Shown here in pieces: positions 3,471-37,362 of a DNA stretch of 64,000 nucleotides. Within the stretch, counting starts at the first letter, position 1, and each line of letters begins with the position of its first letter. The notes beneath the pieces were generated by a model. The model ran no database searches and was not told where the DNA came from. It saw nothing but the letters and a program-made list of their open reading frames with translations. Origin of the DNA: Mycobacterium botniense. GTDB lineage: Bacteria; Actinomycetota; Actinomycetes; Mycobacteriales; Mycobacteriaceae. Where the stretch lies: assembly GCF_010723305.1 (NCBI RefSeq), contig NZ_BLKW01000004.1:1860001-1924000 (forward strand), written 5' to 3'. Both the position numbers and the translations under genes were made by a program.

Positions 3471-3545
3471 ACCTTCGACGATAGGGGCCCGCCGGCTCCG
3501 CCGCCCGCGATCCCTGGGATTCCTGCGAATCACTTGCAGTCTTAG

Positions 3546-3561
3546 TGTGACGCAGATTACA
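3546..3561 (+). promoter_or_regulatory. CRP/FNR-type palindrome upstream of the PPE unit
   Basis: TGTGA-CGCAGA-TTACA matches the CRP-family pattern TGTGA-N6-TCACA with one mismatch in the second half. It lies 71 bp upstream of the 55-codon ORF. A nearly identical element sits upstream of the DUF1800 gene at 6387-6402, in flanking sequence that is also similar. Binding by a mycobacterial Crp or Cmr protein is inference. Confidence 0.5.
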
Positions 3562-3616
3562 GTCGTGCTGGACCGTCGGTTGACCGAATCCACAGCCACC
3601 CCCAGAGGCGAAAGCG

Positions 3617-3784
3617 ATGACGCCACCAGCGCTGGCGGACTCCGCACCCACACCACCACACACGATCACCGATCGCGCAAAGCCGGCTCACCCGCCCGGG
3701 AAACTCGATACGCCGAGCGCCCACCCTCCCGTCTACAGCGCGGCAGCGGCGCTGACGTCTGCGCACGGGTGGGAGGCACCGTGA
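3617..3784 (+). CDS. 55-codon ORF coupled to the PPE gene
   Basis: A 55-residue ORF with a ribosome binding site (AGAGGCGA) before ATG 3617. Its TGA stop overlaps the PPE GTG start in a GTGA junction, which suggests translational coupling. Its first residues, [10 protein letters not shown], align without gaps with the start of the DUF1800 protein further downstream (MTPPTLVDPA), including Asp19-Arg20 and Ala24-His25. The untranslated leaders are also alike. I read it as the 5' remnant of a duplicated DUF1800 gene, possibly kept as a leader ORF for the PPE gene. Whether the peptide has a function is unknown; the C-terminal half ([14 protein letters not shown]) matches nothing I recognise. Confidence 0.4.
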
Positions 3785-5529
3785 CCGCGCCGATCTGGAT
3801 GGCGTTTCCCCCGGAGGTGCATTCGACGCTGCTCTCCAGCGGCCCCGGGCCGGGGCCGCTGCTGGCGTCGGCTGCGGCCTGGAATTCACTCAGCGCCGAA
3901 TACGCCGGGGTCGCTGACGAGCTGACCGCGGTGTTGGGCGCGGTACAGGCCGGCGTCTGGGACGGTCCGACCGCTGCGGCGTACGTCGCCGCCAATGCGC
4001 CGTATCTGGCGTGGCTGATGCAGGCCAGCGCCAACAGTGCGGCCACGGCCAGCCAGCAAGAAACCGCGGCAGCCGCCTACACCAGCGCGCTGGCGGCCAT
4101 GCCGACACTGGTCGAACTGGCCGCCAACCACGCCACCCACGCGGTATTGGTGGCGACGAATTTCTTCGGCATCAACACCATCCCAATCGCGCTCAACGAG
4201 GCCGACTACGTGCGGATGTGGATACAGGCCGCCACCACGATGGGCACCTACCAGGCGATCGCCACCTCAGCGGTGGCCGCCACGCCGCAGACCAGCCCCG
4301 CGCCGCAGATCGTGAAATCCAACGCCACATCCGACCCGCCACAAGCCGCCACCAGCCCCGCAACGTCGGCCGTGGATTCGATATTCAACCTCTTGACGCA
4401 GCTGTCGACCAATCCGCTCTACACCGACTTCTACGACAACCTGCTGGGGCCGCTAGGCAATGTCGCACTTCAGGGAATCCCCCCTGGAGAATTTGCCTTC
4501 ATCGGCAACCCGTTCTTTTTCTTCAGCCCCGCGAACCTGGCGTATGCGGCGGTACCCATCGACCCGGGCACATTTGCCGCCTTGGTCTCTAGCTTGGTGT
4601 CGGGCACACTGGCCGGTTTACCCGAGGTGGTAGGGATAGCCGCGGCGACGGGTAATCCCGCAATTGTGGCGATCGTTTTGATATTCAACGCTATCGAATT
4701 CATTTCGTTTCTGGTCACGAATATCATCCAGTTGCTGCACTGGCTGCTCGACACAGCGACGTCGCTGATCCCGGCTGTTCTTCCCCTGCTGACCGCCGCT
4801 TTGGCCCCGGTCGCCGCCCCCGTGGGTGCGCTGAGCGGCGTCGCGGGCGTGGCGGGGCTGGCGGGGCTGGCCGGTCTGGCGCCGCCGGCTACGGTGCCCG
4901 TCACACCACCCGTCGCGGCGCTGGCTCCGGCGTTGAGCCCGGCCCCGACCCCAGCTCCCGCTCCGGCCCCCGCGCCAGCGCCCACCGCAACGCCCGCACC
5001 CCCCACGGCCGCGGGCCCACCGCCACCAGCGCCCGCCCCACCGCCCCCGGCCGCCGCAGGCATGCCGGGTTTCTCCTATGTGGTGGGAAGCCTTCCCGCC
5101 GAGGTTCGGGCGAGCGCCCGTGCCAAGGCTCGGGCGCCGACCCGCGATCAGGCCGAGATCCCGGCCGCCGCGGCCGCGGCGGCGGCTGGGCAGAAGGCGC
5201 GGGACCGCCGACGCCGGCGAGCGAAGGTCACAATGCTCGGTCGCGGCTATGAGTACATGGATGTGGAGCCAGAACCCGGCGCGTCGGCGGAAGACCGGGA
5301 CAACCAGCCCGGCGCGGCGCCGGTCTCGGATGGCGCTGCCGGATCGATTGGTTTCACCGGGACCACGCGCAAGCGGACCACCGCACACCCAGCGGGGCTG
5401 GCCGCTCTGGCCGACGACTCGGCCGGCGGCGGCTCGTGGGTGCCGATGATGCCGGCTACCTGGGAGCGCGACGCGGACCGGGAGTCCGCGCGGCTTCCCG
5501 ACCAGAAGGACTCGCAGAACGACACTTAA
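3781..5529 (+). CDS. PPE protein, PPW subfamily
   Basis: A 582-residue PPE protein starting at GTG 3781, with GGGAGGC upstream. The PPE domain covers about residues 1-180, with the Pro-Pro-Glu at [12 protein letters not shown] and a WxG-like stretch ([10 protein letters not shown]). A long Ala/Pro-rich linker follows around residues 380-430 ([15 protein letters not shown]). The C-terminus has the PPW signature: GFTGT near residue 523, then PMMPATW. Such proteins are usually exported by type VII secretion with a PE partner; no PE gene lies adjacent. The function is unknown, with host interaction or outer-membrane transport proposed for the family. The TAA stop overlaps an ATG in frame with the next gene. 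The 55-codon ORF and a CRP-type site lie upstream. Confidence 0.92.
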
Positions 5530-5720
5530 TGAAACTCATTGCGCATCAACCCAAGCGACCCTACTGGCGAGGCAGCATCATGAGCGGTGCGCGGCGGCCA
5601 TGCGTGCGTTGCCTTATTTGCTGCGACGATGTGGTGGCGGGATCCGCTGAGTATCAGGCTCGCCGCACGGCGAGTACGGTGTTATCTAAGCCGGCGCAAC
5701 GGCCGGGGAAGGGTTCCCCA

Positions 5721-6287: not shown

Positions 6288-6386
6288 GTGGCCGGCGGCG
6301 CAAAAACCAGGCCACCGGTGGCCGCCAGGGGCCCGGCGCTGCTTCATCCCCGCTCCCGGATTCCTGCAAACCACTTGCACGACTAG

Positions 6387-6402
6387 TGTGACGCACATTA
6401 CA
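6387..6402 (+). promoter_or_regulatory. CRP/FNR-type palindrome upstream of DUF1800
   Basis: TGTGA-CGCACA-TTACA, one mismatch from TGTGA-N6-TCACA, lies 85 bp upstream of the DUF1800 start. The block CTTGCANNNCTAGTGTGACG and the following ATTACAGTCGTG are shared with the PPE upstream region (3535-3567). The element is therefore duplicated, not a lone chance match. The bound regulator is inferred only. Confidence 0.5.
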
Positions 6403-6471
6403 GTCGTGGCTGAAACCAACGTCGGAGATTCAGGCACGACGACCCACGCCCATCCACACGAGGCGACAGCA

Positions 6472-7911
6472 ATGACGCCACCCACGCTGGTGGACCCGGC
6501 ACTTTCAGCATCACCCGCGACCAGCGACCGCGAGCAGATGGCGCACCTGCTGCGCCGGGCAGGTTTCGGCGCGACGGCCGACGAACTCGACTCCTATCTG
6601 GCGGCGGGTTACCAGGCCACCGTCGAAGCACTGGTGAACCCGCCCGAGGAAACGCCAACATACGGCTGCTACCCCGATCACGACCTGGTGGACCGGTACT
6701 TCACGGCCTCGGTGGGCCCACGCAGCCCCGAGTACGCGTGGCCGCAGTGGATGTGGCGGCTGCTCACCACCACCCGTCCGCTGCAGGAGAAGATGGCGCT
6801 GTTTTGGCACGGGCTGTTCGCCACCGGCGTCAAATACCCGCTGCCGTGCTCGGCCCAGCTCGAGCAGATCGAGATGTTCCGCCGGCGCGGCATGGGCGGC
6901 TTCGAAGAACTGCTGCGCAGCCTCTCCCGAGATCCGGCCATGCTGTTCTGGCTGGACAACCAGGCCAATCACAAGGACGCACCCAACGAGAACTACGCCC
7001 GGGAACTCCTGGAGCTATTCACGATGGGGGTGGGCAACTACACCGAGGCCGACGTCAAAGCGGCGGCGCGAGCGTTCACCGGCTGGGGGGTCATCCCGAT
7101 GATGCCGCAGTTCTTCCTGGGCACCTTCCCGGCCGCGTTCCGCTACGACGAGTCTGACCACGACGCCACCGACAAGACCTTCTTGGGCCATACCGGCCCC
7201 TTCAACGGCGACGACATCATCGCCATCATCGTCCAGCAGCCGGCGACCGCCCGGTTCCTGTGCGATCGGCTCTACCGCTTTTTCGTCGCCGACGAACCCG
7301 ATGAGTCGGGCCGCGCCGAAATCGCCCGGCTCAGCGCGGTGTTCCTGGACACCGGTGGTGATGTGCGCAGCCTGCTGCGAGCCGTCTTCACCTCCGATCA
7401 CTTCCGGTCCGAGCAGGTGCGCTACCGCAAGGTCAAAAGCCCCGTCGAGCTGATGGTCGGCACGGCCCGGCTCACCGGCCGCTGGCAGCTGCCCACCACC
7501 GATGTCGCCGAGCTTGCCCGCAACGCGCACTTCATGGGCCAGTCCCTGCTCAACCCGCCCTCTGTGGAGGGGTGGCATGAAGGTGAGGAGTGGATCGACA
7601 GCGCGGGGTTGATCGAGCGGATCAATTGCGCCAGCGCCGAGATCACCCACCCCGAAGCCCCGGGGGTTCAGCGCATCGTGGCCCGGGTCCGGGCATGGCT
7701 GGAAAACTGTGCCGACCAGACACCCGCCGCCTGGGTGGACGCGTGTCTGCAGGCAATGGGCTCGCTGAAAATCTCGCCAGAAACACGTCAGGTGTTAACC
7801 GAACACCTGGCCGACCCGCCGGCGCCCCGCGCCGGCGCCCACGCGGTTGAGCGCTACACGCTGGAGTTGCTGAGGGCAATTGTGTCGACCCCCGACTACC
7901 AGTACTGCTGA
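6472..7911 (+). CDS. DUF1800 family protein
   Basis: A 479-residue DUF1800 protein. ATG 6472 is preferred because it has GAGGCGA upstream and gives the N-terminus shared with the 55-codon ORF. Family blocks are clear: HLLRRAGFGATADELD near residue 23, FWHGLFATGV, NYARELLELFTMGVG near residue 180, AARAFTGWGV, and a C-terminal NPPSVEGWHEGEEW. The family is of unknown biochemical function and is very often paired with DUF1501, as here. No signal peptide is visible. It probably forms an operon with the DUF1501 and NHL genes. An in-frame ATG at 6388 overlaps the CRP-type site and is unlikely to be used. Confidence 0.85.
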   Translation: MTPPTLVDPALSASPATSDREQMAHLLRRAGFGATADELDSYLAAGYQATVEALVNPPEETPTYGCYPDHDLVDRYFTASVGPRSPEYAWPQWMWRLLTTTRPLQEKMALFWHGLFATGVKYPLPCSAQLEQIEMFRRRGMGGFEELLRSLSRDPAMLFWLDNQANHKDAPNENYARELLELFTMGVGNYTEADVKAAARAFTGWGVIPMMPQFFLGTFPAAFRYDESDHDATDKTFLGHTGPFNGDDIIAIIVQQPATARFLCDRLYRFFVADEPDESGRAEIARLSAVFLDTGGDVRSLLRAVFTSDHFRSEQVRYRKVKSPVELMVGTARLTGRWQLPTTDVAELARNAHFMGQSLLNPPSVEGWHEGEEWIDSAGLIERINCASAEITHPEAPGVQRIVARVRAWLENCADQTPAAWVDACLQAMGSLKISPETRQVLTEHLADPPAPRAGAHAVERYTLELLRAIVSTPDYQYC

Positions 7912-7969
7912 GACAGCTGGCCCACACCGAGCACCGAACCCGTCGACATCGCTAGCAAAGGTGACAGAG

Positions 7970-9133
7970 GTGACCACACCGGTGACTGCATCCCAAGAAC
8001 CGACCCGGCTGGTGGTTGTGCAGCTCACGGGCGGTAACGACTATCTGAACACGGTCGTTCCCTACGCCGACGGCCGCTACTACGACTTCCGGCCCCATGT
8101 CGCGCTCGGAGAGGACGCCGTGTTGCCCATCGATGAGCGGGTCGGCTTCAGTTCGGCCCTGGCGCCGATCGCGCGCCTCTACGAGCAGAAAAAGGTGGCG
8201 GTGGTGATGGGAATCGGCTACCCCAACCACAGCCGTTCGCACTTTCGGTCCATGGACATCTGGCACACCGCCGAACCGGACGAGGTGAAGCTGGAGGGGT
8301 GGTTGGCCAAGGTCGCCTCACTGCTCGACCCCCGGCACACCAACCCAGTACTGGCGGTGAACTTCGGGCGCGGCCTGCCCAGGGCCCTGTCCCTGCCAGG
8401 GGTCCCGGCAGCATCGGTGAGCAGCCTCGACAAGTACGGCCTGTTCCCCGATATCGGGCCCGGGGATAGCCGTGACCGCCTGTTGCGGGTGGTCCACGAC
8501 GCCTACTCTCGCCAGCCAAACCCCCAGACAGCGTGGGGGTCGCCTCGCTTGTTCAACACCGGCCGGTCCGCCCAGCAGGGCATCGCAATGCTCAACGCCG
8601 CCGCCGCGGCGTATCGCTCCCGCGTCGAGTACCCGCAGTTCAACCAGATCGCCACGGACCTGAAAGGCGTGGCCACGGTGATGGCGGGAAACCTGGGAAC
8701 CCGCATCTTCTACACCAGTTTCGGCAGCTTCGACACCCATACCGACGAGGTGGCGTCGCACGCTCGGCTCTGGGAGAAGGTCTCGGCAGCTCTCGAGGCG
8801 TTCTTCACCGACCTGGACAACCTGGGGCTGCGGCGCACCACACTGGTCCTGGTCTTCTCCGAGTTCGGTCGACGCATCGCCGAGAACAACATCGGGACCG
8901 ACCACGGCGCGGGCGGGGTGGCCTTCCTCATCGGCGACGAGGTGGCCGGTGGACTGTATGGCGAATACCCGAATCTGGCGCCGGAAGCGCAGGACGAGGG
9001 AGATGTGCGGCCCAGCACCGACTTTCGCGCCATGTATGCGTCAATCCTCGAGCAGTTCCTCGACGTGGACGCCCGAGACGTGCTGGGCACCAACACCCGC
9101 TTCGAGCAGCTTCCCCTTCGGGCGGCAGCATGA
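7970..9133 (+). CDS. DUF1501 family protein
   Basis: About 387 residues of the DUF1501 family, which has an alkaline phosphatase/sulfatase-like fold. Visible hallmarks are LVVVQLTGGNDYLNTVVPY at the start, YPNHSRSHFRSMDIWHTA, GSFDTHTDE and VFSEFGRRIAENN followed by TDHGAGG, which supply probable metal ligands. Most family members begin with a twin-arginine signal; here the domain starts almost at once, so a cytoplasmic location is inferred. The start is uncertain between GTG 7961 and GTG 7970; AAAGG favours 7970. The stop overlaps the NHL start as ATGA, so the two are probably cotranslated. The DUF1800 partner precedes it by about 60 bp. Confidence 0.82.
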   Translation: MTTPVTASQEPTRLVVVQLTGGNDYLNTVVPYADGRYYDFRPHVALGEDAVLPIDERVGFSSALAPIARLYEQKKVAVVMGIGYPNHSRSHFRSMDIWHTAEPDEVKLEGWLAKVASLLDPRHTNPVLAVNFGRGLPRALSLPGVPAASVSSLDKYGLFPDIGPGDSRDRLLRVVHDAYSRQPNPQTAWGSPRLFNTGRSAQQGIAMLNAAAAAYRSRVEYPQFNQIATDLKGVATVMAGNLGTRIFYTSFGSFDTHTDEVASHARLWEKVSAALEAFFTDLDNLGLRRTTLVLVFSEFGRRIAENNIGTDHGAGGVAFLIGDEVAGGLYGEYPNLAPEAQDEGDVRPSTDFRAMYASILEQFLDVDARDVLGTNTRFEQLPLRAAA

Positions 9134-34135: not shown

Positions 34136-34441
34136 CTGGTCGCCACCGACCACCGCGACGTCCCGTCCGCGGTGTTGACCGATCCGCCGATAACCACGGT
34201 AGGACTGACCGAAAACAGGGCTTTCGCACAGGGATTCGATGTATGCGTCGTTCAGCACCATAGCGACGTCGCCTACGGCTGGACGATGACGGACACCACC
34301 GGCATCGCTGATCCAGGCGATGAGCTTCGGGCTGACCGCCGCCGAGACAGCCCGCGGCGCGGATGAGACTCGCCCGGTCCGCCCGAGGTGGTCAAGACCG
34401 CGGTCCTGGAGCGGTACTGGGGCCCGCTCTATGCGGTTTAA
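34136..34441 (+). pseudogene. mtr: Remnant of mycothione reductase gene (mtr)
   Basis: Three short plus-strand pieces in different frames match successive parts of the mycothione reductase C-terminus as I recall it. First, about 34142-34306, TDHRDVPSAVLTDPPITTVG, then LTENRAFAQG and DVAYGWTMTDTTGIA. Second, 34311-34360, IQAMSFGLTAAETARG. Third, ending at TAA 34439-34441, PPEVVKTAVLERYW. About 30 codons between the first two pieces are missing, and the FAD and disulfide domains are gone. In M. tuberculosis intact mtr (Rv2855) sits at this place near mqo. The remnant cannot make a working enzyme. Its end overlaps the end of the Fur-family gene. Confidence 0.8.
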
Positions 34442-34935
34442 CGCTGCCGCGGTTGGATTCTGGGTTCCTGCCCCTCAGCCTGGCATTGCGGGCACAGCCC
34501 GTGCAACGTCAGGCCAGCCCGCTCGGACAGGCTGAAGGAACTGCCCGCCATCGCATGCTCCAACGCTGATGTCAGCTGTTGTGCGGGCACCTCGATGATC
34601 GAGCCGCATCGGGTGCATACCGCGTGATGGTGCGGGTCAGTGGCCAGCCCGTACGTGGTGACCCCGTTCTCCAGGGTCAACGCGTGCAGCACCCCCTGCT
34701 CGACCAGTGTCGTCACTGTCCGGTAAATCGTCGCCAGGTCCGGCGGCGGGGTCCCGGCGGGCAGGCACTCGCGCAGTCGCTGAGAGATCTCGGCCACCGA
34801 TAGGTGCCCGTTGACCGGCTCCAGTACCGCCAGCACCGCGATGCGGGAAGCCATCCGCCGCAGCCCATGGGCACGCAGGAACGCGCCGATCCGCTCGGTG
34901 ACGGCCGGATCGAGAGCCGACGGCTTCGTCGTCAC
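34438..34935 (-). CDS. Fur-family metal-dependent repressor (Nur-like by context)
   Basis: A 165-residue Fur-family regulator. The winged-helix DNA-binding domain occupies about residues 1-90 (RIAVLAVLEPVNGHLSVAEI, then LATIYRTVTTLVEQGVL). The dimer/metal domain has a His-rich loop and two CxxC pairs, DPHHHAVCTRCG near residue 100 and GLCPQCQ near 148, which bind structural zinc. It is divergent from the phosphodiesterase and nicT genes. A 6-5-6 inverted repeat resembling the nickel-regulator (Nur) box lies upstream of nicT, so nickel sensing is the best inference. Zur, PerR or Fur function cannot be excluded. It differs in location from M. tuberculosis FurA and FurB. Confidence 0.85.
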   Translation of the reverse strand: MTTKPSALDPAVTERIGAFLRAHGLRRMASRIAVLAVLEPVNGHLSVAEISQRLRECLPAGTPPPDLATIYRTVTTLVEQGVLHALTLENGVTTYGLATDPHHHAVCTRCGSIIEVPAQQLTSALEHAMAGSSFSLSERAGLTLHGLCPQCQAEGQEPRIQPRQR

Positions 34936-35005
34936 CCCTTCAGTGTCGCGCCCCTGTCCGGGATTGCCAACGCACCGCGGCGATTCTTATGAAAGGGATT
35001 TCTGT

Positions 35006-36139
35006 TTGGCTGCCAGACTGGCCTGCGTGGCCGGGTCAATCTGTGATGTGCTGCCGTCGGCGGCGGCGCTGCTCGGACACCCCGTCGCGGTGGATGCGCT
35101 CGGGTTGACCGAGAGCGTCGGTGCTGTCGCTCGGGTGGGTCTCCTGCTGGTCGACGGCATGGGCGCACATCTGCTGCCGCAGATGTGCGCCCATGCGCCC
35201 CTGCTGGCCTCGGTGATGGCCGGCGGTGCCGGACGACTGGACAACCTGGTCTGCACCTTCCCGTCGACGACACCGACCAGCTTGGTGTCGCTGGCCACCG
35301 GTACGTCAGCGGGCGAGCACGGCATCCTGGGCTTCACCGTCAAGCTCCCCGACACCGACCGGGTGTTGCATCACATCATGTGGCGTGACGACCCCCCGCC
35401 CGCCCAGTGGCAGCCGGTCCCGACATGGTTCGAACGGCTCACCGAGGCCGGGATCAGCGCCCGGGCGGTGTTGCCGGCGGCGTTCCTCGGCAGCGGCTTG
35501 ACCGAGGCCGCGTACCGCGGCGCGCGGCTGCGCCCCGCCGGCCCCCACACCGACTACGCCCAGCAGGTGCTCGACGAGCTCGACGCGGCGCCGGGACTGG
35601 TCTATGCCTATACCGCCGAACTGGACACCGCGGCGCATCTGTTCGGCATCGGGTCGCGGCAGTGGCAGCAAGCAGCCGCCCAGGTCGACGCGCTGGTGAC
35701 CCGCCTGGTGGAGGCATTGCCGCCGGACGCGGCGCTGCTGGTCACCGCCGACCACGGCGGTGTGAATGCCCAGACCCGCGTCGACCTTGACGCCGACCCG
35801 CGACTGACGTCGGGGGTCCGAGTGGTCGCCGGCGAACCGCGGGTGCGCTACCTGTACACCCGAGCCGGCGCAGCAGCCGATGTGCTGGCCACCTGGCGCG
35901 AGCTGCTCGGCAACCGCGCCGAGGTGTGCAGCCGCGAGCAGGCGGTGGCCGCCGGTGTGTTCGGGCCCGTGCACCCGCGCCACCTGAGCCGCATCGGCGA
36001 CGTCGTCGTCACCTGCACAGGCGACACGGTGGTGCTGGCCACCGGTCACGAGCCACCGCAAACTGCGCGCCTCGTCGGCTTCCACGGCGGGAGCACGCCG
36101 GCCGAGACGGAGATCCCGCTGATCACCTTCCGCGGGTAG
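35006..36139 (+). CDS. Type I phosphodiesterase/nucleotide pyrophosphatase-like protein
   Basis: About 377 residues of the alkaline phosphatase superfamily. Metal-site signatures are LLLVDGMGAHLLP near residue 44, TFPSTTPTSLVSLATGTSAG near 85 (Thr nucleophile region), ELDTAAHLFG near 203 and TADHGGVNAQ near 246. The C-terminus has GFHGGSTPAETEIPLITFRG. No signal peptide is present, so it is probably cytoplasmic; the substrate is unknown. TTG 35006 is chosen because GAAAGGGA lies 7 bases upstream; GTG 35027 is the alternative. It is divergent from the Fur-family gene by about 70 bp and precedes nicT, so metal control of this enzyme is conceivable. Confidence 0.8.
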   Translation: MAARLACVAGSICDVLPSAAALLGHPVAVDALGLTESVGAVARVGLLLVDGMGAHLLPQMCAHAPLLASVMAGGAGRLDNLVCTFPSTTPTSLVSLATGTSAGEHGILGFTVKLPDTDRVLHHIMWRDDPPPAQWQPVPTWFERLTEAGISARAVLPAAFLGSGLTEAAYRGARLRPAGPHTDYAQQVLDELDAAPGLVYAYTAELDTAAHLFGIGSRQWQQAAAQVDALVTRLVEALPPDAALLVTADHGGVNAQTRVDLDADPRLTSGVRVVAGEPRVRYLYTRAGAAADVLATWRELLGNRAEVCSREQAVAAGVFGPVHPRHLSRIGDVVVTCTGDTVVLATGHEPPQTARLVGFHGGSTPAETEIPLITFRG

Positions 36140-36147
36140 TTGTGCTT

Positions 36148-36164
36148 TTGCGAAATAGTCGCAA
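36148..36164 (+). promoter_or_regulatory. 6-5-6 inverted repeat, candidate Nur box upstream of nicT
   Basis: TTGCGA-AATAG-TCGCAA is a perfect inverted repeat 83 bp before the nicT ATG. A further TTGCG follows at 36170-36174. Its 6-5-6 layout and TTGC/GCAA ends match the published Streptomyces Nur box pattern (TTGCAA-N5-TTGCAA). A Fur-family gene lies 1.2 kb away. Binding is inferred. Confidence 0.6.
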
Positions 36165-36246
36165 TATCCTTGCGGAGCGCCGGCACCGAATGTGCCGGGT
36201 GGTTTAGCGTGTGTTCAGCCGATTTCCGGCGCTGAGGGGTAACGAG

Positions 36247-37362
36247 ATGCCCGGTACTGGCCACCGGCGGACGGGGCTGTGGTCGCGGCTGCGGCGCGCC
36301 CTGACTGCGGCGGAGTGGGCGCGTCTGGGATCGATGGCCGCAGTGATCGTGGCGCTGCACGTGATCGGCTGGGTCGCTCTGGTGTGCGTCGTCGCGCCCG
36401 CACACTTCAGCGTCGGCGGCACCACGTTCGGCCTGGGTGTCGGCGTTACGGGCTACACGCTGGGGCTGCGGCACGCAGTCGACGCCGACCATATCGCCGC
36501 GATCGACAACACCACCCGCAAACTGATGAACGACGGGCAGCGTCCGCTGGCGGTCGGCTTCTTTTTCTCGCTGGGCCACTCTTCGGTGGTATTCGGGCTG
36601 GCGGTGCTGCTGGCGGTGGGTTTGAAGACGATCGTCGGGCCGGTGGAAAACCAGTCCTCGCAACTGCACTACTACACCGGGCTGATCGGCGCCACCGTCT
36701 CAGGGGTGTTCCTTTATCTGATTGCCCTCATCAACGTTGCCATTCTGGCCGGTATTTTGGGCGTCTTCGTCCGGATGCGCCGCGGCGTTTACGACGAGGA
36801 CGAGTTGGAAGCGCAGTTGCACAAGCGGGGATTGCTCAACCGGATTCTCGGCCGCACCACCACATCGATCACCACCTCCTGGCACATGTATCCGGTCGGT
36901 GTCTTGTTCGGGCTGGGCTTCGACACCGCCACCGAGGTCGCGCTGCTGGCACTGGCGGGCACCGGTGCGGTGTCCGGCCTGCCCTGGTACGCCATCATGT
37001 GTCTGCCCGTGTTGTTCACCGCCGGCATGTGCCTGCTGGACACCATCGACGGGTCGTTCATGAACTTCGCCTACGGCTGGGCGTTTTCCAACCCGGTCCG
37101 CAAGGTCTACTACAACATCACCATCACCGGGTTGTCGGTCGCCGTCGCCATGGTGATCGGCACCGTCGAACTGCTCGGGCTGCTTGCCGGTCAGCTGGGC
37201 TGGACCGGCGGAATCTGGAACTGGATCGCCGGTATCGACCTCAACGCTATCGGCGTTGTCATCGTCGCGCTGTTCGCGCTGACCTGGGTTGTCGCGCTCC
37301 TGGTGTGGCGTTTCGCACACATCGAGGACAAGTGGCGCCTGCCGGCCCGCCGCGGTGCCTAA
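36247..37362 (+). CDS. nicT: Nickel/cobalt transporter of the NiCoT family
   Basis: A 371-residue inner-membrane permease with eight predicted helices. The family signature in helix 2 is RHAVDADHIAAIDNTTRK near residue 77 (the HX4DH metal-selectivity motif). Others are FFFSLGHSSVVFGLA near 112, LFGLGFDTATEVALL near 222 and GMCLLDTIDGSFMNFAYGWA near 260. It takes up Ni2+ or Co2+; selectivity cannot be read with confidence. The start is ATG 36247 behind GAGGGGT. A candidate Nur box lies upstream. Nickel would serve urease or hydrogenase and cobalt would serve the B12 genes nearby. The M. tuberculosis counterpart is Rv2856. Confidence 0.93.
   Translation: MPGTGHRRTGLWSRLRRALTAAEWARLGSMAAVIVALHVIGWVALVCVVAPAHFSVGGTTFGLGVGVTGYTLGLRHAVDADHIAAIDNTTRKLMNDGQRPLAVGFFFSLGHSSVVFGLAVLLAVGLKTIVGPVENQSSQLHYYTGLIGATVSGVFLYLIALINVAILAGILGVFVRMRRGVYDEDELEAQLHKRGLLNRILGRTTTSITTSWHMYPVGVLFGLGFDTATEVALLALAGTGAVSGLPWYAIMCLPVLFTAGMCLLDTIDGSFMNFAYGWAFSNPVRKVYYNITITGLSVAVAMVIGTVELLGLLAGQLGWTGGIWNWIAGIDLNAIGVVIVALFALTWVVALLVWRFAHIEDKWRLPARRGA

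Follow-up and report, generated by a model that had tools for sequence, protein, structure and literature searches.

FurN, a Fur-family regulator of mycobacteria, and a conserved Nur-type operator upstream of the nickel/cobalt permease gene nicT

INTRODUCTION

Is the nickel/cobalt permease gene nicT of mycobacteria controlled by a Fur-family regulator through an operator of the Nur type? The question is raised by a locus of Mycobacterium botniense (a 4.3 Mb genome placed in the genus Mycobacterium), where the palindrome TTGCGA-AATAG-TCGCAA stands before nicT and a Fur-family gene, called furN here, lies close by. We analysed the 64,000 nucleotides of contig NZ_BLKW01000004.1 from 1,860,001 to 1,924,000, referred to as the window; the features are listed in Table 1. 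The comparisons described below suggest that FurN, a little-studied protein of numerous slow growers of the genus, is probably a nickel-responsive repressor of nicT, which would act via a Nur-type operator (box) and have a wider nickel regulon.

The nickel regulators of M. tuberculosis named in a passage of PMC10961391, NmtR and KmtR, are of the ArsR kind; FurN belongs to the Fur family. In an excerpt of a 2008 survey of actinobacterial Fur proteins, two homologs each are given for two M. avium genomes (PMC2464607). A search of the open-licence literature found no title or abstract describing FurN, and no co-repressor of mycobacterial nickel import. The FurN finding supplies a concrete operator, regulator and target list, and ties nickel to the hydrogenase closest in sequence to 5AA5.

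RESULTS

The operator upstream of nicT is conserved in furN loci

The original prediction had placed the palindrome 83 bp before a Ni/Co permease gene, and a Fur-family gene with His-rich and CxxC metal sites about 1.2 kb from it. All of these were found. NicT scored 593 bits against the NCBIfam equivalog NF052500 (cut-off 450), the furN product is a member of the Fur superfamily by PF01475, above its curated cut-off, and it has histidines at H102–H104 and the CxxC pairs C107/C110 and C148/C151.

We observed TGCRA-N5-TYGCA (the strict pattern) in each of the 62 distinct regions counted upstream of nicT in furN loci, own included, so that an operator of Nur form is present at a nickel-uptake gene throughout. 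Loci L005–L097 having nicT and at least 250 bp upstream were counted, identical upstream sequences once. The 62 boxes are made up of 30 different 15-mers, and the half-sites are thus kept while the spacer varies. In the 8 relatives with the PDE-nicT order of the window (PDE, a type I phosphodiesterase/nucleotide pyrophosphatase), a counterpart of box 1 was present at the matching place in all 8. The pattern was found in none of the 10 nicT upstream regions from furN-less genomes, and in none of the eight outgroup contexts (L240–L247).

This conservation also decides against a chance inverted repeat. Perfect 6-5-6 repeats are common in the window (55 seen versus 32.5 expected under a first-order Markov model), and symmetry alone is therefore no evidence; however, chance would not keep position and half-sites in 62 of 62 nicT regions while the 5-bp spacer varies, and we rejected this explanation as extremely improbable. 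Within the window, TTGCNA-N5-TNGCAA occurs once (0.0 expected, 40 simulated windows) and TGCRA-N5-TYGCA four times (0.225 expected). With two mismatches allowed, the pattern was not enriched (13 seen versus 15 expected).

The placing of the boxes is consistent with control of the nicT promoter. At divergent-type loci, the half-site nearest nicT is probably also the -35 hexamer, TTGCAT, with TACAGT after it (both by eye). A second, looser box 22 bp on was seen in several PDE-type relatives, and a TANNNT element was read by eye at a comparable position in the window and in 8 of 8 PDE-type relatives. A nickel-loaded FurN dimer would be expected to bind TGCRA-N5-TYGCA and to block the nicT promoter, the box overlapping the likely -35 hexamer at divergent furN-nicT loci. 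In the lineage of the window, the tandem boxes, 22 bp apart, extend across the -35 and the DNA just upstream of it. When nickel is short, FurN would release the box and nicT would be made. Boxes of the same kind also stand before [NiFe]-hydrogenase genes linked to hypAB, and before PPE and DUF1800-DUF1501 genes in the window and a small number of other genomes.

Autoregulation of furN through the box was considered and rejected, as a strict box was found in the furN-PDE gap of 0 of 11 named loci having PDE beside furN. The putative furN promoter of the window is likewise without an operator box.

The [NiFe]-hydrogenase genes carry the same box

In the own genome, two boxes 23 bp apart are located between hypB and the [NiFe]-hydrogenase small-subunit gene, about 257 kb from furN. 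The closest solved relative of this subunit is 5AA5 (542 bits), which we take to be a hydrogenase of the actinobacterial (group 1h) type. A hydrogenase gene was found in 35 of 40 furN-positive versus 15 of 40 furN-negative genomes. A strict box lay at most 700 bp upstream of it in 21 of the 30 loci returned from the 35 furN-positive genomes with a match, and in none of the 15 furN-negative loci (Fisher p 4e-6, relatedness not corrected). The furN-positive sets (40 or 30 genomes) and the furN-negative sets (30 or 40), here and below, were hand-picked and not random.

These data bear on a rival explanation, in which a genuine box is recognised by some other regulator and furN is a passenger beside nicT, with zinc, iron or peroxide as its signal. 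By sequence alone, a number of Fur, PerR and Zur chains outscore Nur when compared with FurN (9IRE, 54.9 bits; 3EYY, 33.4 bits), and among the source names for the best 120 FurN homologs, otherwise Fur-family regulator or transcriptional repressor, there is one PerR (P0110). However, the box goes together with furN throughout the genus, even at sites far from furN such as the own hydrogenase genes, the hydrogenase boxes track furN status, and the three other Fur-family matches of the own genome are all located away from the furN locus. We consider this explanation improbable.

The hydrogenase boxes also bear on the identity of the metal. NiCoT permeases transport nickel or cobalt, and nicT of the window is in a cobalamin neighbourhood, with ORFs read as cobO and cobQ and a Mg-chelatase-like ORF. 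FurN could accordingly be a cobalt sensor controlling cobalt uptake for vitamin B12, NicT carrying cobalt. This is unlikely in our judgement, as the box is also found at the gene for a nickel enzyme, the hydrogenase, and no cobalamin gene was recognised by eye beside the 17 strict sites of the own genome, a part of which was not family-searched. In two furN-less genomes, a distant nicT instead has a leader like the adenosylcobalamin (AdoCbl) riboswitch, with scores of 44.1 and 40.5 bits that fall short of the cut-off of 50; this hints that some cobalt transporters are under another kind of control. A third furN-less nicT leader (L131) looks riboswitch-like by eye and gave no match in the search. 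In the window, no cobalamin riboswitch was found at the gathering threshold. Nickel as the metal of FurN is favoured, because a nickel/cobalt permease gene and a nickel hydrogenase share the box.

The hydrogenase boxes are roughly 50–150 bp away from a conserved core promoter of the TTGAC type, on its upstream side. Plain occlusion is therefore unlikely at these genes, and activation would be as likely as repression.

We also scanned 294 genomes with two longer patterns. The promoter pattern TCCTGCRA-N5-TTGCA-N15-21-TACAGT, drawn up from the known nicT and PPE/DUF1800 promoters, gave 40 sites in 39 genomes (control, 0), and all 39 are furN-positive. The tandem pattern TGCGA-N5-TYGCA-N7-8-TGC-N9-GCA, designed once the nicT and hydrogenase pairs were known, matched in 8 genomes, all furN-positive (control, 1). 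In the own genome it matched only the nicT and hydrogenase sites; the 7 sites in other genomes are at nicT (3), at PPE genes (2), inside a coding frame (G132) and between unrelated genes (G017).

PPE and DUF1800-DUF1501 genes are candidate targets in few lineages

Two further operators of the window stand before a PPE gene and before a DUF1800-DUF1501 gene pair (Table 1). The PPE promoter and leader (3483–3695) duplicate the DUF1800 promoter and start (6327–6550), with 71% identity over 227 aligned positions. Boxes were seen at such genes in a few other genomes (G numbers denote genomes, L numbers loci). G251 has one before a PPE gene and another (L237:7916) before DUF7676-DUF1800-DUF1501 genes. 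G083 has one before DUF1800 (L239:7689), and G191 has a strict box and a looser second box before a PPE gene. Pairs of one-mismatch boxes stand before PPE genes in G083 and G148, the latter having nicT, DUF1501, DUF1800, PE, PPE, two Esx genes, PDE and furN grouped together. In G230, where furN and nicT are divergent, a tandem box is located between PDE and a PPE gene with about 42% identity. PPE genes are also found downstream of nicT on the same strand in L038, L047, L042 and L040 (Pfam-confirmed except L040), and PE and PPE (PPE-SVP) genes in L050.

We compared 20 PPE loci, drawn from 19 of 30 genomes. A strict box is present at 2 of them, and another 2 show a pair of one-mismatch boxes with a distance of 23 bp. 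The 16 others have neither, single one-mismatch sites being taken as chance. As so few of these loci are boxed, PPE control would be confined to few lineages, and we rejected PPE as a general target. DUF1800 was rejected as a general target as well, the gene being present in only 3 of 40 furN-positive genomes. ESX-3 was rejected too. A strict box is located in the own genome before a gene that we take to be eccA3 of ESX-3 (L299:7334; G000:C2:1426333), and none of the 30 relatives' loci has a box within 400 bp, even with one mismatch. We treated this box as chance or lineage-specific. Further upstream of it the own genome keeps an IdeR-like site, with a PPE gene in between.

It is conceivable, and we put it forward tentatively, that slow-growing mycobacteria have a nickel regulon under a Fur-family sensor with a non-Nur metal site, which in some lineages extends to the outer envelope through PPE genes (in places PE, Esx, DUF1800 and DUF1501), as a nickel-specific mycomembrane uptake route feeding NicT. 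The same sensor would match an actinobacterial-type hydrogenase to the nickel supply. Boxed PPE genes also offer a regulatory clue to the cargo of some PPE proteins.

A second motif, TGTGA-N6-TTACA, is present at 3546–3561 and 6387–6402, where it runs into the -10 elements of the PPE promoter and the DUF1800 promoter, and is also found at G251:C23:122314–122356. It resembles a CRP site.

FurN differs from Nur at the nickel site

In FurN, H44, H84, H102–H104, E115 and four Cys are invariant in 120 of 120 homologs. We compared these with Nur of Streptomyces coelicolor (SCO4180; PDB 3EYY), taking its metal-site residues to be H70, H72 and H126 (nickel site) and H33, H86, H88 and H90 (M-site). The Fur fold, the TTGCAA-N5-TTGCAA operator layout, two CxxC pairs, the M-site residues H33, H88 and H90 and, presumably, control of nickel uptake are common to the two proteins. 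The three M-site His are kept in 120 of 120 FurN; position 86 holds P in 117 proteins and A in the other 3, and H102 adjoins. In contrast, the nickel-site His of Nur are replaced mostly by A, T and G and H86 mostly by P, the HHH..C loop is one residue shorter, and the invariant H84 stands where Nur has S69. Among the 120 closest Nur homologs, positions 70, 72 and 126 are H in all.

A passage of PMC7055735 describes the Nur nickel site as three His, without numbers, and names sodF, sodN and nikABCDE as Nur targets; the targets seen for FurN (nicT, [NiFe]-hydrogenase and PPE genes) differ from these. The Nur box consensus, as printed in an excerpt of PMC3919588, is tTGCaa-N5-ttGCAA.

FurN came out as a separate clade in the tree (95/93); its sisters are two distant relatives (99/98) on long branches. 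A clade of FurN and Streptomyces Nur alone was rejected (p-AU 0.010). A clade of FurN, Nur and other actinobacterial Nur-like proteins was not rejected (p-AU 0.228), on a tree without a resolved backbone and with long branches.

Mycobacterial FurB/Zur (PDB 2O03), also a metal-uptake regulator of the Fur family, falls in a separate clade (MtFurB, L001 and L232, 100/100) and has no equivalent of H44; the own genome encodes a protein 90% identical to FurB elsewhere (L001). NikR, NmtR and KmtR share with FurN a link to nickel but belong to the NikR and ArsR families. The passage of PMC10961391 describes NmtR and KmtR as nickel-cobalt sensors in M. tuberculosis, and that of PMC7055735 assigns NmtR to a group tied to export, not uptake.

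The proposal of Nur-type nickel regulation thus holds in part. A Fur gene tied to nicT, the Nur-layout operator in 62 of 62 regions and the hydrogenase boxes speak for it; the idea that FurN is Nur proper is not supported, the nickel-site His being absent in 120 of 120 homologs and the clade with Streptomyces Nur alone rejected, and the regulon appears wider than nicT. From the sequence comparisons we favour that FurN works like Nur, not that it is Nur. A Nur-type operator read by a protein without the Nur nickel site would show that operator and metal site can part within the Fur family.

Points that weigh against a nickel-responsive FurN

Several results speak against the view that FurN represses nicT in response to nickel. 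Binding of the box by FurN, nickel as the metal and repression of nicT are steps that we infer from the observed genes and boxes, their conservation and their co-occurrence with furN. At the Nur nickel-site positions, 118 of the 120 FurN have A at 70 (T/G in the rest), 105 have T at 72 (A/I in the rest) and all 120 have G at 126; none has H at any of the three. The strict pattern is not enriched genome-wide, with 17 sites versus 14 for the reversed control; the significance of box 1 lies in its conservation in relatives and not in genome-wide enrichment. The furN-less nicT matches are mostly distant (9 of 10 at 43–57% identity; only that of G026 is close, at 69%), and this control is therefore weak for nicT itself.

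Of the 40 promoter-pattern sites, 36 adjoin furN itself and are hence the same nicT promoters again; the other 4 are at PPE or DUF1800 genes. Founding sites match both longer patterns by construction, because both were built from sites already seen. Moreover, the PPE and DUF1800 boxes are not independent, as both come from one duplicated promoter, and the strict eccA3 box is not conserved (0 of 30 relatives). Nine of 30 hydrogenase loci of furN-positive genomes are without a strict box. Four of these nine have a looser TGC-N9-GCA at the matching place, but 5 of 15 furN-negative loci also contain one somewhere in the 700 bp preceding the hydrogenase gene, so that loose sites alone count for nothing.

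Distribution of furN and organization of the locus

A furN match at E <= 2.8e-41 was found in 94 of 297 genus genomes, own included, with 57–99% identity; the 297 were drawn from a larger group. Below these, there is a gap to G142 (44%, 1.5e-23), and then the general Fur background. Judged by furN alone, M. celatum is the nearest of the named relatives, at 95% over 150 residues.

The 63 named mycobacterial loci (L035–L097) have nicT divergent from furN with less than 300 bp between them (43 loci), furN and nicT divergent across 0.9–1.0 kb (5), PDE beside furN as in the window (11), or neither nicT nor PDE in the stretch compared (4). Hydrogenase, hypAB, nicT and furN are grouped together in M. 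gastri (L061), and hydrogenase, hypAB, PDE and furN in M. celatum (L037) and M. kyorinense DSM 45166 (L035). Relatives have a TGGCAATCC...GACACTGAA block 5' of furN (read by eye).

Table 1. Positions of the genes, operators and putative promoter elements in the window
Feature	Position	Strand	Remarks
Operator before PPE gene, TGCGA-ATCAC-TTGCA	3524..3538	.	Promoter frame TCC-box-TACAGT, as nicT of divergent-type relatives
Putative -10, PPE promoter, TACAGT	3558..3563	+	Promoter-pattern match; predicted
Leader ORF, 55 residues, duplicated copy of DUF1800 gene start	3617..3784	+	Stop overlaps PPE gene GTG
PPE gene, PPE-PPW subfamily	3781..5529	+	PF00823, 209.6 bits; PF18878, 51.9 bits
Operator before DUF1800 gene, TGCAA-ACCAC-TTGCA	6365..6379	.	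Strict-pattern site
Putative -10, DUF1800 promoter, TACAGT	6399..6404	+	Promoter-pattern match; predicted
DUF1800 gene	6472..7911	+	PF08811, 364.6 bits
DUF1501 gene	7880..9133	+	PF07394, 88.1 bits; start uncertain
furN, Fur-family regulator, 165 aa	34438..34935	-	GTG start at 34935; PF01475, 66.2 bits (cut-off 23.1)
Putative leaderless furN promoter	34942..34970	-	TTGGCA 34965–34970, 17 bp, GACACT 34942–34947, GTG 6 bp on; predicted
PDE gene, between furN and nicT	about 35009..36139	+	PF01663, 137 bits; start codon uncertain
Operator box 1, TTGCGA-AATAG-TCGCAA (TTGCGAAATAGTCGCAA)	36148..36164	.	83 bp before nicT ATG at 36247
Degenerate second box, TGCGG-AGCGC-CGGCA	36171..36185	.	22 bp after box 1
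Putative nicT -10, TAGCGT	36205..36210	+	Predicted
nicT, nickel/cobalt permease, NiCoT family	36247..37362	+	NF052500; TIGR00802, 393 bits; PF03824

Some minor observations were made at these and related loci. The 44% identical FurN relative of G142 (L248; ORF 4959–5492) has a strict box at 5586, 94 bp upstream, and is divergent from a gene that by eye only looks like one for a thiamine-diphosphate enzyme. In the window, 34136–34388 hold two pieces (67% and 52% identical) of a gene for mycothione reductase (mtr); a long mtr match adjoins furN in many relatives. L130 (G115, a 3.3 Mb genome) is a decayed locus with pieces of mtr, nicT and PDE and a remnant of the furN start (44% over 36 residues). 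In the furN-less L122 (G026), mtr adjoins nicT, and neither a Fur gene between them nor a box was found; a short stretch there is 60% identical over 15 residues to the C-terminus of FurN (E 0.45), which is suggestive only. Finally, the PDE coding region contains a perfect inverted repeat at 35157–35196 (arms of 18 bp, loop of 4 bp); at this place the protein reading differs in the PDE of relatives.

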